The translations under genes and the position numbers were made by a program. Of a stretch of 57,545 nt of DNA, positions 19,208 to 57,460 are shown one piece after another (the stretch's first letter is position 1; the number at the start of each line of letters is the position of its first letter). The stretch is from Planctomycetota bacterium (GTDB taxonomy: Bacteria; Planctomycetota; MHYJ01; JACQXL01; JACQZI01): contig JACQZI010000030.1 in the NCBI GenBank assembly GCA_016207825.1, positions 1 through 57,545 on the forward strand, in the 5' to 3' direction. The notes beneath the pieces are model-generated. The model was not told the DNA's origin, did not search any database, and was given only the letters and a program-made list of their open reading frames with translations.

Positions 19208-22131
19208 AAAATATCTGCCGCGGCATATTAATCCCGCTTGTCTTTGCTTTGATTTCGTGCCAGACGACCACTTTCGTCCCCACCCCGGATAAACAACTGC
19301 CGCAACCAAAGCAGCCGGAAACAATGGTGCTGGTAAAAGAAAACCTATGGCTCGGGATATTGCTGGAAGAATCCGGCAACAAATTATTAATCAAGGATTT
19401 GTTCTGGAATTCTCCCGCCGAACATGCCGGCATTAAAGCAGGCGACCAATTAACCGTAATAAACGGGAAAAAGACAAGCACGCTGGCTGAAGCAAAAACA
19501 TCGCTTTATTCATTGCCCACGAACGCCCCTGTCAGGCTAAACCTTATCCGGGAAGAAGAAAAAATCACGCTTTCAGCCGGAGATAAGAAAGAAGAACTTT
19601 CCACCCCTGATTTACCATCCAAATACCGTGAATTCTGGAACGGCTTAAAGCACGGCGAAACCGTTTCGCTTTTCGTAAGCAAGAAACTTACTCCGCTTGA
19701 GTTTTCTATAAAAGCAAAAAATATACCACCCGCTTACCCTTTGCCCGTTGAGGAAACGCCGGCAGAACCGATTACCCCAACCGCGCCATCGGCGTGGATG
19801 GGCGTCCAACTGTCTGATGTCAACGATTTAGAACCATTTGGCGAACCTAAAGGGCAAAAAGGCGTCAGGATAGACCAGGTCGTTCCCGATACTCCGGCGC
19901 AAAAAGCCGGGTTGCAGGATAAAGATATCATTATCAATTACGACTCCCAATCATTCAAAACCGATGAAACATCTCCCCTGGCAACCCTTTCCGAATCCAT
20001 CAAAAGCAAAAAGCCCGGAACGACGATGAACGTAACCGTCTTGCGCGAAAACCATATATTAAGCACCATGCTTAACGGCAAGCCTATGAATATATCAATA
20101 GACAAGCTTATGGAAAAAATAGAAAAACTGAATATCCCTTCCGAACTCCAGGCGACTCTTACCAAAAAGCATGATAAGCTTATCATCCCGGTAATACTGG
20201 GCGCCCGGCCGGAATTCGCCTCCGCCAAAGAACCTCAAGACTGGGATAATGAAACGCTCCACCCGGAACTAAAAAATTACAAGCACCCGATTGAAGAATC
20301 CATAAGCCAAATAATGGAATGGACCGCAATAACGGATAAATACGCCGACCTTCTGAAACGCTATACCGATGACGAGAAATGGGAGGACGCATTCAGGCTT
20401 AAAGAAATAAAATACCTGCACCGCGACCCGTTTAAGATGGAGAAAATATCGGCTGATTTCCTAAACCAGCTGCAAAGCACTTCAAATATCTCCGTCCTGC
20501 CTTTGCTTATCTCTTATATCGGGCGGGAAATGGATATGTCCGAATATCCGCATAAAATACCCGCGGAAATACCGTCCCTCAAAACAGGGATATCACTGGA
20601 AGAACATGTTAAGCAGATAGAATCCGTCCTGGAAACTGCCTCTAAACTGCGTGACGAGGCGTTTGAAGGGCTGACTAAATCGGAAATGAAATTCCTCTCC
20701 GAAAATATCTTCGGTTTTACCAACCGTTATATCCGCGATTTCCATTTCTCCGACCCCGAAGAGATTAAAAAACGCAATGATATCGACCGTGAAATACTCG
20801 CGCTGGCAGAACGCGTGGATTATGCCAAGCTCTTGAAATCAGCACAAGTCGTCGCCTCGCTCTTTGACGAAGCTTACCTCAAAGGATTGTCCGAAGACGC
20901 CGGCGATAAAGACATCGCCAAAGACACCAAATGGGGAAAAATCATCATCGGCAACAGGGATAACGACCAATACCTGGAGTTTCACGCGGTGATAATAGAT
21001 TTAGGCGGAAATGATTTCTATGCCGATACCGGCGCGTCATCGCTGGAAAGGCCGTCCTCGATAATTATAGACTACAAAGGCAACGATACATATTCATCCT
21101 ATAATTACGCCTGCCAGGGAACCGGTATTTTAGGCTCGGCTTTTGTGGTTGACCTTGCCGGGAACGACGCCTATGTCGCCCAGGATTGGGGACAGGGCTC
21201 GGGATTTTTCGGTATCGGCGTGCTTTATGACAAAGAAGGTAATGACATTTACCGCGGAAAGGAATACGTCCAGGGCGCCGGATTCTTCGGGCTCGGCATC
21301 CTTATAGATAACGACGGCGATGACCGCTACCAGGCAAACATGTTCGCCCAGGGATTCGCCTCGACCAAAGGTTGCGGGCTTCTGATGGATAAAAACGGGA
21401 ATGACGATTATTACGCCACCGCCAGCCAGCCCAACAGCTACCCGGAAAACATCGGGACATTCAACGGATTTTCACAGGGCTCCGGCACAGGCATCCGCTG
21501 TTACGCGGATGGCGGGATGTCACGCTCGGGCGGAATCGGGATACTCATTGACGCAAACGGCCGCGACCGTTATGAAGCCGGGACATTCTCCCAGGGCGGC
21601 GGCTATTTCTTCGGCTGGGGCTTGCTTTACGACGGAGGCGAAAATAGCGATACTTACATCGGCACGCGCTACGCCCAGGGATTCACCGCCCATTCCGCGC
21701 TCGGGTTCTTCATGGATGAGGCCGGCGACGACCATTATGCTTCTTACTGCGGCGTACACGCCGGTTTATCCTGGGACTTGACCGCCACCGTATTCATTGA
21801 TAAAGCAGGCAACGATACCTATGACTATGAAGGCGGCTTTTCCGTGGGCGCGGTTGCCCACAACGGGTTTTGCCTTTTCTACGACGCCGCAGGGAAAGAT
21901 ACATATAATTCTGTCCTGGGCAAAAACGGCGCCGGCAACAGCTACCACGGCGGCTACAGCCTTTCCATATTCCTGGACGAGGATTCAAAGGAAGACAAAT
22001 ATCACCAAAAAGGAGAAATTTCGCCGGTTGAAGTTGAAAAAGAATATGCGATTACCATTCGCCTCAATAAAAAGCTGTCCGAACTTTCCGAGGAAGAATT
22101 ACAGTCCGGCATAAAAGATTTAACTAAATAA
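19198..22131 (+). CDS. PDZ lipoprotein with GND-Y tandem repeats
   Basis: 977 residues. The ATG at 19198, inside the last codons of the amidase gene, is followed by a lipoprotein signal (IPLVFALISC), which is why I prefer it to the ATG at 19147. Two PDZ domains: about 40-100 (SPAEHAGIKAGDQLTVINGKK) and about 195-285 (DTPAQKAGLQDKDIIINYDS). A helical middle (about 330-590) follows. Residues about 598-935 hold roughly eleven repeats of about 27 residues marked D-x-x-G-N-D-x-Y, each followed by a Gly-rich QG-x-G-F-F-G strand. These look like metal-binding beta-repeats (inference). No protease triad is present. Stop and next start overlap (TAATG). Confidence 0.8.
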   Translation: MLIKNICRGILIPLVFALISCQTTTFVPTPDKQLPQPKQPETMVLVKENLWLGILLEESGNKLLIKDLFWNSPAEHAGIKAGDQLTVINGKKTSTLAEAKTSLYSLPTNAPVRLNLIREEEKITLSAGDKKEELSTPDLPSKYREFWNGLKHGETVSLFVSKKLTPLEFSIKAKNIPPAYPLPVEETPAEPITPTAPSAWMGVQLSDVNDLEPFGEPKGQKGVRIDQVVPDTPAQKAGLQDKDIIINYDSQSFKTDETSPLATLSESIKSKKPGTTMNVTVLRENHILSTMLNGKPMNISIDKLMEKIEKLNIPSELQATLTKKHDKLIIPVILGARPEFASAKEPQDWDNETLHPELKNYKHPIEESISQIMEWTAITDKYADLLKRYTDDEKWEDAFRLKEIKYLHRDPFKMEKISADFLNQLQSTSNISVLPLLISYIGREMDMSEYPHKIPAEIPSLKTGISLEEHVKQIESVLETASKLRDEAFEGLTKSEMKFLSENIFGFTNRYIRDFHFSDPEEIKKRNDIDREILALAERVDYAKLLKSAQVVASLFDEAYLKGLSEDAGDKDIAKDTKWGKIIIGNRDNDQYLEFHAVIIDLGGNDFYADTGASSLERPSSIIIDYKGNDTYSSYNYACQGTGILGSAFVVDLAGNDAYVAQDWGQGSGFFGIGVLYDKEGNDIYRGKEYVQGAGFFGLGILIDNDGDDRYQANMFAQGFASTKGCGLLMDKNGNDDYYATASQPNSYPENIGTFNGFSQGSGTGIRCYADGGMSRSGGIGILIDANGRDRYEAGTFSQGGGYFFGWGLLYDGGENSDTYIGTRYAQGFTAHSALGFFMDEAGDDHYASYCGVHAGLSWDLTATVFIDKAGNDTYDYEGGFSVGAVAHNGFCLFYDAAGKDTYNSVLGKNGAGNSYHGGYSLSIFLDEDSKEDKYHQKGEISPVEVEKEYAITIRLNKKLSELSEEELQSGIKDLTK

Positions 22132-23108
22132 TGCTCTTACAAGTCCACTACCCGTTTTACATCATCTTTGTTGCCGTAATAATTCTCTTGATAATAAACC
22201 TGCTGATTGCCTTCCGGCGAATCCGGAAAAACATTCTTAAGCGAACGCTCACTGCTTCGCGCCTGGACAACAAAGCCTTATTTATTTCCGTCTTGTCAAT
22301 AGATGCTATCCTGATTTTATGCGTCCTTTACGGCCACTTGATTGAGCCGAACCTTGTGGAAATCAATTCATTCAGTTACACCTCTAAAAAGATAACCGGC
22401 CCGCCTGCCGGCGAGGCAGTCTCCCCTATCCGCATAGTCCATTTATCAGACTTGCATATTGAGAGCGAAGGTGAACGCGAGCTGACCGTGCCGGAGATGG
22501 TCAACAAACTCAATCCGCATATTATCGTCATAACCGGCGATTATTTAAACGAAGGGACGCCGGATGAACCATTGAAAAACTTCTTATCAAAACTGAAAGC
22601 GCCTTTCGGCATTTACGCGGTCAGCGGCAACTGGGATACGAAACACACTATGGCAGTCCTTAAAGAATCCGGCGTTACCATACTGGATAACCGTAAAATA
22701 ATATTGAATATCCACGGCTCGCAAATCAGCTTACACGGCATCTCCTGCCCGGGCGCCTGGTATAACCCGGCCAAAATGGTCGAGGAACTCGAACCGGAAA
22801 AAGAAGGGCTTAATATCCTGCTTTCCCACCTGCCGGATATCCTGCCTGATGTCAAGGAGGTGGGATTTGATTTCCTGCTTTGTGGGCATACGCACGGCGG
22901 GCAGGTAAGGATTCCATTTTACGGCGCGCTGGTGACCATCTCCAGATACGGCAAGCTCTTTGAAGCCGGCTGGTATAAATCCGGCGAGACAATGATGTAT
23001 GTTAACCGCGGAATCGGATTGGAAGGAATAAAACACGCCCCGCGTGTCAGGTTCTTGTGTAAACCGGAAATAATGCTCTTGGAAGTATCCGGAATGGCGC
23101 TCCCTTAA
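22131..23108 (+). CDS. Membrane-anchored metallophosphoesterase
   Basis: 325 residues. Two N-terminal membrane helices (about 8-28 and 48-70), then a calcineurin-like domain with VHLSDLHIES, VITGDYLNEG, VSGNWDTKH, LLSHLPDI and GHTHGGQVRIP, the full set of dimetal ligands. Architecture matches the YkuE/YaeI family that removes lipid-linked or nucleotide phosphates; substrate unknown. Residues about 90-99 (GPPAGEAVSP) are encoded by a palindromic repeat (22398-22427) and separate the membrane part from the catalytic domain. The start overlaps the stop of the PDZ lipoprotein, so the pair is translationally coupled. Confidence 0.9.
   Translation: MLLQVHYPFYIIFVAVIILLIINLLIAFRRIRKNILKRTLTASRLDNKALFISVLSIDAILILCVLYGHLIEPNLVEINSFSYTSKKITGPPAGEAVSPIRIVHLSDLHIESEGERELTVPEMVNKLNPHIIVITGDYLNEGTPDEPLKNFLSKLKAPFGIYAVSGNWDTKHTMAVLKESGVTILDNRKIILNIHGSQISLHGISCPGAWYNPAKMVEELEPEKEGLNILLSHLPDILPDVKEVGFDFLLCGHTHGGQVRIPFYGALVTISRYGKLFEAGWYKSGETMMYVNRGIGLEGIKHAPRVRFLCKPEIMLLEVSGMALP
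22398..22427 (+). repeat. Palindromic repeat inside phosphoesterase CDS
   Basis: GGCCCGCCTGCCGGCGAGGC is a near-palindrome like GCCCGCCTGACCGGACGGGC at about 23230 in the following intergenic repeat. It lies in frame and adds about ten residues. Confidence 0.55.
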
Positions 23109-23350: not shown

Positions 23351-23543
23351 CAAAGTGATTCTCTTAGGACATTAATGTGGTGAGTATCAATTAATGTACA
23401 ATTCGGGGAAAATAGCCTGACCAATAGAGGGGATAGGGGTTTTGAAACGGGGGTAGGTAGGGTATATACCCCCCGCTTAATTGCTTATATTCATTTTAAC
23501 CCCTTAATTCTGCGTTATATTGAGTTTGGCGGGTTCTACAAGC
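23351..23543. other. Intergenic spacer before the first 21-bp array
   Basis: No gene seen. It contains GGGGGTAGGTAGGGTATATACCCCCC (split here as GGGGGTAGGTAGGG and TATATACCCCCC) at about 23451-23477, a C/G-run texture like the window start and the lead-in of the 22-bp array at 56976. Confidence 0.4.
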
Positions 23544-23774
23544 TTTCTATTCTCAGGGCTAAAACTTTCCGACCCAGGGATAACTTTTTCCGCCTTGGGG
23601 ACAAACCTTTCATCCCTTGGGCTGAACCATTCATCCTTTGGGATAAACCATCTATCCCGCGGGCTGAACCATTCATCCTTTGGGATAAACCATCTGTCCC
23701 ACGGGCTGAACCATTCAGCCTTAGGGATGAATCATTCATCCCGCGGTATAAATCATTCAGGGAAATTCGGACAC
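23544..23774. repeat. Tandem array, 11 units of exactly 21 bp
   Basis: Eleven consecutive 21-bp units without a single indel (23544, 23565, 23586 ... 23754). Consensus in two parts: C-A-T-T-C-ATCCC then NNGGGATAAAC. Each unit has a dyad (ATCC...GGGAT) at its centre. Odd and even units alternate GGGATAAAC and GGGCTGAAC. Because 21 is divisible by 3 and units lack stops, frames stay open on both strands, but there is no SD and no family resemblance, so I treat it as non-coding. It lies between two convergent genes. Confidence 0.9.
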
Positions 23775-23902
23775 TTCCTGTTTTTCTTTGAGTAATATAC
23801 CCCTCCTACGGAGGATTATAACTTTTCGCTTAGTTACTGACAAGGGAAAAATCTTACTCTGTTTAATCGGTGTAATCCTGTTGTCTGTTAATTGGAATGT
23901 AT

Positions 23903-24763
23903 TTAGAATTGACTCGCGAATAACTCGCCTGCCCCGTAGGAACTGCGGACAAACGGGCCCGAAGCAATCGCCTTAAAACCTATTTCATATCCGGCTTTTT
24001 CGTAGCGCTTGAACTCATCCGGATGGACAAACCTTACCACGTCAAGGCATCTCTCATCCTTCTTGGGTTTCAGGTATTGCCCGATGGTTACCATATCGCA
24101 CCCGATTGCCTTTAAATCCGATAACACATTAATCACTTCTTCTTCCGTCTCGCCAAGGCCGAGCATCAAACCGGATTTAACGATTATATCAGGCGATATC
24201 TTTTTCGCCATGCCTAAAAGATTAAGCGAACGGTAATAATCCGCGCCGGGCCTGACTACCGGATAAAGCCGCGGAACGGTTTCAAGATTATGGTTAAAGA
24301 CATGCGGCTTGGCATTAAGCACTTCCTTCAACGATTCTTCATTGCCCTTGAAATCCGGAGTAAGCACTTCCACTTTCGCTTCCGGCTGGCCTTTACGGAG
24401 AGTTCTTATAGTCTCGGCGAAATGCCTGCTCCCGCCATCATGTAAATCATCGCGCGTTACCGAGGTGACCACCACGTGTTTTAATCCGAGCTTCCTGCTG
24501 ATTTCGGCGATGCGTTCGGGCTCGGCATGGTCAACCGGTTTGGGCGCGCCCCCATCAATAGCGCAGAAACGGCATGAGCGCGTGCAGGTATTTCCGAGAA
24601 TCAGGAAGGTCGCCGTTCCCTTGCCGAAACATTCCATCAGGTTCGGGCAACGGGCGCTTTGGCAGACTGTATGCGCGGAATGTTTTTCCAACAGCTGGTT
24701 TGTCTTAAGGCTTTCGCCCAAAGGAGGGGTTTTACGCTTAAGCCATTCGGGAAAATTACTCAT
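23903..24763 (-). CDS. lipA: Lipoyl synthase LipA
   Basis: 286 residues, normal length. Radical SAM enzyme inserting two sulfurs into octanoyl groups. The auxiliary cluster cysteines lie in TVCQSARCPNLMECFGKG and the radical-SAM CxxxCxxC in GNTCTRSCRFCAI; the C-terminal RSSY motif (PFVRSSYGAGE) is present. Other family blocks: VVVTSVTRDDLHDGG, NHNLETVPRLYPVVRPGADY, KSGLMLGLGETEEEV. It lies downstream of lipB and efp on the minus strand, separated from lipB by a repeat pair (24774-24904). Confidence 0.97.
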   Translation of the reverse strand: MSNFPEWLKRKTPPLGESLKTNQLLEKHSAHTVCQSARCPNLMECFGKGTATFLILGNTCTRSCRFCAIDGGAPKPVDHAEPERIAEISRKLGLKHVVVTSVTRDDLHDGGSRHFAETIRTLRKGQPEAKVEVLTPDFKGNEESLKEVLNAKPHVFNHNLETVPRLYPVVRPGADYYRSLNLLGMAKKISPDIIVKSGLMLGLGETEEEVINVLSDLKAIGCDMVTIGQYLKPKKDERCLDVVRFVHPDEFKRYEKAGYEIGFKAIASGPFVRSSYGAGELFASQF

Positions 24764-29519: not shown

Positions 29520-29813
29520 GGTTTTAACCCATGTCGGAACCGTTCAGCGCATGCGATAACTCATTCAGCTCATGCGATATACCGTTCAGCGCATGCGATA
29601 ACCCGTTCAGCGCATGCGATAACCCAATCAGCGCATGCGATATACCGTTCAGCGCATGCGATGAAACATTCCAAGCATGCTACGAAACATTCATCCATTG
29701 GAATAACTCATTCATCCCTGGGTCTAAGCCCTTGCGACCTTGGTCGGAAACCTTCAGCCCGTGGATTGAGCCCTTCGCTCCCCAGTATAAACCGTTCGTT
29801 CCTCCCCGCGTGG
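29520..29813. repeat. Tandem array, about 12-14 units of exactly 21 bp
   Basis: Units begin at 29541, 29562, 29583 and so on through 29792 with no indel; weaker units extend to 29520 and 29813. The first seven share C-R-TTCAGC-GCATGC-GATA with a central GCATGC palindrome; later units drift to CCATTGG, CCCTGGG and similar but keep a dyad core and period. The 5' part of each unit (CATTCA) matches the array at 23544-23774. Open frames here are a by-product of the 21-bp period. It lies between convergent genes. Confidence 0.9.
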
Positions 29814-56851: not shown

Positions 56852-56975
56852 AAACTAAATCAAAGCACGGAAAACGAATTAAATGCGGTTTAAAACGTAT
56901 ATATTAATTCGCAAATCAATTAAATGCGGTTTTAGGCTGAGGGGGGTACTGCCCCCCACCCCCTAATTACATCCC

Positions 56976-57239
56976 CCCGGCCTATAAGATACTTCTCCCC
57001 GGTCCATAATACTTATCTCCCCGGTCTACAATATACCTGCCCCCGGACGACAATATACCTCTCCCCGGTCCATAATATACCTGCCCCCGGTCTATAATAC
57101 TTATCTCCCCCGTCTATAGTATACATGCCCCCGGCCTACAAGATAGCTCTCCCCCGTCCATAATACTTATCTCCCCGGTCTGTGATATACTTCTCCCCGG
57201 TCGACAGTATCCCTCTCCCTGGTCTATAATATACCTGGG
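56976..57239. repeat. Tandem array, 12 units of exactly 22 bp
   Basis: Twelve consecutive 22-bp units with no indel (56976, 56998, 57020 ... 57218). Consensus CCCGGTCTATAATA followed by TACCTCTC; the core GGTCTATAATATACC is an imperfect dyad. Units differ at many positions but never in length. The same C-run texture appears at the left edge of the window. No SD or family; non-coding in my view. Confidence 0.9.
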
Positions 57240-57460
57240 CCGGGTGGATAAAGTTAATGGGGGAGGATAAAATTTTACCCCTTGCCTATCGGCAGGGACT
57301 CCTTATTAATTCCGATTTCATCGGGAAACTATGTGGAGCGGGGCAGAGGAGTAAAGAACACAGAGAATGTGAAGGTGATCCTTTATGGAATTCGGTATGG
57401 CGCCCCCCTGCTTTGTTGAATAATTATTTTGAGGAGTGATATAAAAGTTAAAGTAAAACA
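57240..57460. other. Intergenic spacer with repeat remnants
   Basis: A 60-codon frame (57257-57439) has no family and contains phrases of the palindromic repeats (CGGCAGGGACTCC, GGAGCGGGGCAG), so I do not call a gene. Nothing else recognised. Confidence 0.4.

Follow-up and report, generated by a model that had tools for sequence, protein, structure and literature searches.

What kind of element is a chain of 21-bp units that lies between two convergent genes, and which of its properties is kept: the motif, the symmetry or the spacing? The question is raised by a 57,545-nucleotide stretch of DNA from a Planctomycetota bacterium (assembly GCA_016207825.1, contig JACQZI010000030.1; the whole stretch is called the window). 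In it, a first-pass annotation had described eleven indel-free units, each with a central ATCC...GGGAT dyad, and had read them as phased protein-binding sites facing one side of the helix.

The window array and its setting

The array, assigned to neither strand, lies at 23552-23759 and comprises about 10 units. It occupies a 794-bp gap between a metallophosphoesterase-like ORF on the left (22131-23108, + strand; named by inspecting its translation) and lipA, the lipoyl synthase gene, on the right (23903-24763, - strand). TRF detects a repeat of period 21 at 23604-23742 (6.6 copies, 0% indels) and one of period 42 at 23588-23760 (4.1 copies, 0% indels). Autocorrelation gives an identity of 0.62 at lag 21 and 0.70 at lag 42, whereas 2,000 dinucleotide shuffles did not exceed 0.41 at any lag from 10 to 69. 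The indel-free 21-bp array between convergent genes is thus real and far above chance, and its repeat is better described as a 42-bp dimer in which two units alternate. The exact spacing reported before holds, but the count of eleven was generous at both ends. Similarly, the circular unit is significantly dyad-symmetric (z = 4.0 versus column permutation), but exact ATCC...GGGAT is found in only about half of the units, the others carrying TCCCGCGGGC or TCCCACGGGC. As RNA, the array folds better than dinucleotide shuffles (z = -5.7), and no Rfam covariance model matches the window at the gathering threshold. In G003, a genome from another family of the same order, the sequence adjacent to the lipA orthologue (L132) carries no array.

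The window contains two other arrays. One, at 29541-29804 (21 bp, neither strand), consists of units related to those of the first array (profile correlation 0.78; 99.9% null quantile 0.48), and its dyad centre changes along the array from GCGCATGCG units to ATCC..GGGAT-like ones. The other, at 56950-57261 (+ strand), is composed of about 13 units of 22 bp that are C-rich on the + strand and have no dyad symmetry. A GGGGGGTACTGCCCCCC palindrome (56941-56957, neither strand) marks the C-rich end of this array, as it does at many other 22-bp arrays.

Arrays of 21 and 22 bp in the genome and the order

About 850 kb of the 2.9-Mb genome that harbours the window (G000) were scanned by autocorrelation, in stretches of which neighbours overlap by 200 bp. 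This sample holds 29 noncoding arrays, which extrapolates to about 98 for the whole genome. At a loose threshold (0.55), the 850 kb give 10 cases at lag 21/42 and 27 at lag 22/44, and zero arrays with a period of 19, 20, 23 or 24; the few remaining periods fall mainly at 6-9, and 12, 15, 18 and 29 occur once or twice each. A similar picture emerges from G003, where all 26 arrays retained in 698 kb have a period of 21 or 22; the lag counts there are 12 at 21/42 and 23 at 22/44. Periods of 18-20 or 23-25 are practically absent. Both kinds are present in a genome of the same genus (G001), and arrays occur in G007, too. Small samples from families f2 and f4 of the order and from other classes showed no resembling arrays; a single 22-bp array was found in a genome of f4 (G006), upstream of a gene of family W, described below (L262).

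The first-pass annotation had proposed to look for arrays of this period in the genome and its relatives; many more exist, and the window array is no singleton. Nor do unit lengths vary from genome to genome, the same two lengths recurring in another family of the order. The unit sequences of most arrays are mutually unrelated beyond column-shuffled controls. The earlier view that the period is kept while the sequence drifts is therefore borne out across 55 arrays, all of 21 or 22 bp with largely unrelated units. The window array belongs to a genome-wide, clade-restricted noncoding class that is defined by a two-turn repeat length and not by sequence. A CRISPR array can be dismissed, since the units are contiguous, without spacers.

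A period of 21 bp could also be dictated by translation, the array then encoding a 7-residue repeat peptide. Indeed, 21 is a multiple of 3, some frames are open (a 91-aa ORF on the + strand, 23520-23795, spans the window array) and a few 21-bp repeats of this genome are truly genic (L080:16158, L083:4436, L084:17408). Nevertheless, coding is extremely improbable: the more numerous 22-bp arrays cannot keep a frame, the 21-bp arrays L098, L089, L180 and L195 have stops in all six frames, and the codon-phase pattern of variation is not consistent. Moreover, a Shine-Dalgarno-like sequence lies between the array and the ATG of many genes of family X, also described below. The window array is noncoding, as had been supposed. 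In G003, the 21-bp repeats L141:8367 and L177:1670 lie in or overlap predicted ORFs, apart from most noncoding arrays.

Several loci drew attention in their own right. Four intergenic gaps of G003 (L135, L137, L178, L182) each contain a 22-bp array next to a 21-bp one. The murE-like orthologues of two families both have a 22-bp array at the 3' end, with unrelated unit sequences (L084:703 in the own genome, L185:7712 in G003). In the 16S rRNA gene of the own genome (L175:1501-2982), which looks planctomycetal, the conserved stretch corresponding to E. coli ~1130-1240 is apparently replaced by unrelated A-rich sequence, which is possibly a misassembly and possibly real.

Constraint on unit length

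No internal phase shift was found in 51 of 55 arrays (629 units), and an out-of-phase continuation occurs in about four. Alignment of paralogous arrays, with one poorly aligning pair excluded, gave about 283 substitutions and 2 non-unit gaps, as compared with 132 substitutions and 10 gaps in homologous noncoding flanks. Indels are thus rarer in arrays than in flanks (Fisher p = 0.0004; with the excluded pair restored, 7 per 324, p = 0.013), the ratio being approximate because different aligners were used for arrays and flanks.

Such regularity could, in principle, be produced without any binding function. A satellite process at work in this order, with a built-in two-turn step and driven possibly by slippage, strand switching or a templating enzyme, would make 21-22-bp copies anywhere, and these would survive where they are harmless, at 3' ends and in convergent gaps. 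This is the main alternative, serious though rather doubtful. It fits the locus-specific units, the higher-order dimers and pentamers, the partial edge units and the dispersed paralogues with common boundaries. The half-units of one array (L283) reverse their orientation in situ, an outcome expected from template switching at quasi-palindromes. On the other hand, old arrays, with about 60% identity between neighbouring units, are still free of indels, and indels are rarer in them than in the homologous flanks.

Two classes of arrays

The 21-bp and 22-bp arrays differ in symmetry. Dyad z values of the 21-bp arrays are 4.0, 3.0, 1.0, 1.8, 3.4 and 2.9 in the own genome, 2.15 on average in G003 and 2.09 +/- 0.23 on average upstream of X genes, as against averages of about 0 (own genome) and 0.5 (G003) for 22-bp units. 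The 22-bp arrays are mostly strand-asymmetric, with C over G, and are often bounded by GGGGG-TA-CCCCC palindromes. Phased dyads as the feature common to such arrays had therefore to be abandoned: they are confined to the 21-bp class, and since the 22-bp arrays, which form the majority, on average lack them, the common denominator is the two-turn period. Curvature at 10.5-11 bp within units gave no clear signal and no consistent harmonic.

Dyads invite the alternative that the arrays act as RNA, as transcribed hairpins or rods in the 5' leader of X genes or 3' of other genes, where they would control translation or mRNA stability. Apart from the fold of the window array, 21-bp arrays in general fold better than column-permuted controls (mean z = -2.2), and some lie within 14-25 nt of an X start codon, which leaves no room for a promoter between. 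Their complementary positions also covary beyond column shuffles (mean z = 1.6), but this score ignores the shared ancestry of the units, so that covariation at the dyad positions is suggestive only. However, G-T (0.83) and A-C (0.84) mismatches at dyad pairs are equally depleted, without the G-U versus A-C asymmetry expected of an RNA on the sense strand. Furthermore, folding is limited to the 21-bp class: the 22-bp arrays fold no better than controls (mean z = -0.6), L104 and L106 being nearly unfolded. With no Rfam match in the window and an orientation that is random with respect to genes, an RNA element seems unlikely. One 22-bp array, L075:15441-15739, is exceptional in that its RNA fold on one strand is far above row-shuffled controls (z = -8.0).

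The palindromes, in turn, raise the possibility of MITE- or REP-like mobile elements with an internal 22-bp satellite, whose transposase would recognise the G5...C5 palindrome. Some array pairs are clearly paralogous with common boundaries, over about 310-380 bp in the case of 22-bp pairs, and many 22-bp arrays carry the palindrome, as mobility would predict. Yet Y1_Tnp/RAYT genes number 1-2 in array-rich genomes versus 5 each in G002 and G004, whose samples lack 21/22-bp arrays, and target-site duplications were not demonstrated. Mobility would also leave the 21-bp class, the fixed period and the unrelated units unexplained, and we regard it as improbable. REP/BIME elements proper were rejected, there being no shared unit and no enrichment of Y1_Tnp in array-rich genomes.

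Genomic context and orientation

Intergenic gaps of 300 bp or longer were surveyed in the two sampled genomes. An array is present in 16 of the 34 convergent gaps and in 22 of the 122 tandem ones, whereas the divergent class yields just 2 of 34 (p = 0.0002 for convergent against divergent), each of these two being a 21-bp array that precedes an X gene. This avoidance of promoters fits tolerance of a satellite as well as function. The position between convergent genes, noted in the first-pass annotation, recurs in that about half of the convergent gaps of this size hold an array, but many 21-bp arrays lie directly upstream of X genes instead, and 22-bp arrays upstream of W genes.

In 22-bp arrays, the C-rich strand shows no preference for either gene direction (7:6) or either sign of local GC skew (12:12), and on the latter split an orientation by replication strand was rejected. 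Together with the equal depletion of G-T and A-C mismatches, this randomness argues for a reading at the DNA level rather than a strand-specific one. It also bears on transcription termination. The 22-bp arrays are often C-rich and G-poor and lie at gene 3' ends, as would be expected of Rho-utilisation sites or other terminator arrays. But in only 7 of 13 tandem cases does the C-rich strand coincide with the coding strand, the 21-bp arrays are not C-rich in this way and some arrays lie 5' of X and W, which makes terminators very improbable.

Gene families linked to the arrays

By comparing the neighbours of arrays between genomes, we found three linked gene families, named here X, Y and W. Family X (~225 aa) has several copies in each of G000, G001, G003 and G007; its predicted structure combines an N-terminal helical domain with a C-terminal fibronectin-III-like (Fn3) domain, and neither Pfam nor NCBIfam assigns it above cut-off. 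A 21-bp array is located upstream of 22 of the 23 X genes with enough upstream sequence and, when the five discovery genes are left aside, of 17 of 18, compared with a background of 0.7%. These arrays stop 14-244 bp before the start codon. Nine more distant X homologues belong to two further families of the phylum, and 3 of these 9 have a 21-bp signal upstream. In family Y, all three genes have a 21-bp array directly downstream.

Family W (~260 aa) is strongly expanded: G000 has 44 matches, G003 has 20 and G007 has 30, a part of which are fragments. Its loci (L251-L280) span G000, G001, G003, G005, G006 and G007; the family is restricted to the order, was not found outside it among 294 genomes of the phylum and has no family match. 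Its structural model is confident (pLDDT 94, pTM 0.76), and a search of the model against the PDB copy used and BFVD returned no match. A 22-bp array lies upstream of 12 of 31 W genes, or 7 of 26 without the five discovery genes, against a background of 1.8%. No DNA-binding fold was recognised in the models of X and W, and no match was obtained for X and W in plasmids or for W in phages. Neither X, Y nor W genes were found near the window arrays, and a profile search revealed no remnants of X or Y beside orphan arrays, those of the window included.

The placement of arrays directly upstream of X (21 bp) and W (22 bp) suggests a more specific role than the segregation or domain-boundary one considered in the first-pass annotation. 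A satellite process would attribute this linkage to co-duplication of gene and array. It then has to accommodate an array kept at the same place in 22 of 23 X genes, in two families and down to about 15% identity, as well as the 21-bp signal that precedes 3 of the 9 homologues from more distant families. Collectively, the scarcity of indels and the linkage to X argue that the fate of the arrays is not purely neutral, while being compatible with a fixed-step origin.

Comparison with known repeats

Our search of the openly accessible literature retrieved no matching description of such arrays. The arrays run head to tail with at least 4 copies of a 10-200-bp unit, as established by TRF and autocorrelation, and in this tandem organisation they resemble satellites. 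The free variation of unit length between unrelated arrays that characterises satellites was not observed, only 21 or 22 bp occurring in two families.

Plasmid iterons and partition-site arrays are direct repeats of about two helical turns that place a protein on one helix face, each replicon having one shared motif and a cognate protein. The two-turn spacing is found here as well, but a common binding motif is not: around 100 chromosomal arrays display many motifs. REP/BIME elements are palindromes that lie between genes, at 3' ends and frequently in convergent gaps, with a shared sequence and a RAYT transposase. The location is alike, whereas the present arrays have no shared sequence and no RAYT enrichment.

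Prokaryotic satellites and minisatellites are similar in that their units of 10-30 bp form tandem arrays between genes, and some of these arrays occur as dispersed families (PMC6749651). In the parts of that survey considered here (Subirana and Messeguer 2019), unit lengths are varied and mostly microsatellite-derived or multiples of three, and transposition of noncoding satellites is rare; unlike the satellites described there, dozens of unrelated arrays here have exactly 21 or 22 bp (PMC6749651). Borg tandem repeats also form many genic and intergenic arrays over one genome, with units differing between loci (PMC9879509). However, Borg units are perfect copies rich in A, they vary in length and about half of them lie within ORFs, whereas the units reported here are degenerate, come in just two lengths and are noncoding with few exceptions (PMC9879509). 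The ~11-bp periodicity of bacterial sequences shares the tie to the helical pitch of supercoiled DNA, but it is a weak signal at the level of dinucleotides, spread over the genome and mostly within coding DNA, in contrast to discrete arrays with whole-unit repetition at two turns (PMC4132750).

Discussion

What is common to these arrays is two turns of the helix, and not sequence, strand, coding frame or RNA folding. Spacing appears to be the property kept constant, whether by selection or by the process that makes the arrays. We therefore favour, tentatively and at slightly less than an even chance, a helically phased platform that acts at the DNA level and is occupied by a binding protein. 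Negatively supercoiled bacterial DNA is usually taken to have a pitch of ~11 bp (PMC4132750), and with such a pitch both 21 and 22 are plausible two-turn spacings. One sequence-specific protein cannot explain all arrays, since no motif is common to them.

On such a platform, about 8-18 sites per array would lie on one helix face, and a nucleoid-type or regulatory protein could assemble on them cooperatively. To the candidate protein, exact sequence would matter less than spacing and local shape or symmetry. Symmetric dimers would bind the 21-bp dyad class, and a directional partner the asymmetric 22-bp class. The bound array may silence, insulate or regulate neighbouring lineage-specific genes, and the two 21-bp arrays of the window would be free-standing copies of the same element, with no X, Y or W nearby. 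Several observations count against a platform: about 19 of 31 W genes have no array, higher-order duplications, as in L098, show that ordinary tandem duplication makes the arrays grow, the X and W models lack a recognised DNA-binding fold, and curvature within units gave no clear signal.

It is conceivable, though we put it forward with considerable reserve, that the arrays represent a new class of period-defined chromosomal element. Some 100 two-turn arrays per genome, in one order, would then exist in symmetric 21-bp and directional 22-bp forms and make up a code, for binding or architecture, that is linked to X and W; selection would act on symmetry and helical phase and leave the base sequence free to drift. 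X and W themselves are uncharacterised, lineage-expanded families and likely partners or clients of the arrays. If spacing rather than sequence is what is conserved, motif and homology searches would miss such elements, and periodicity scans would be needed to find them. Furthermore, with these arrays nature itself provides a test of whether helical phase can, on its own, serve as a signal under selection in bacterial genomes.
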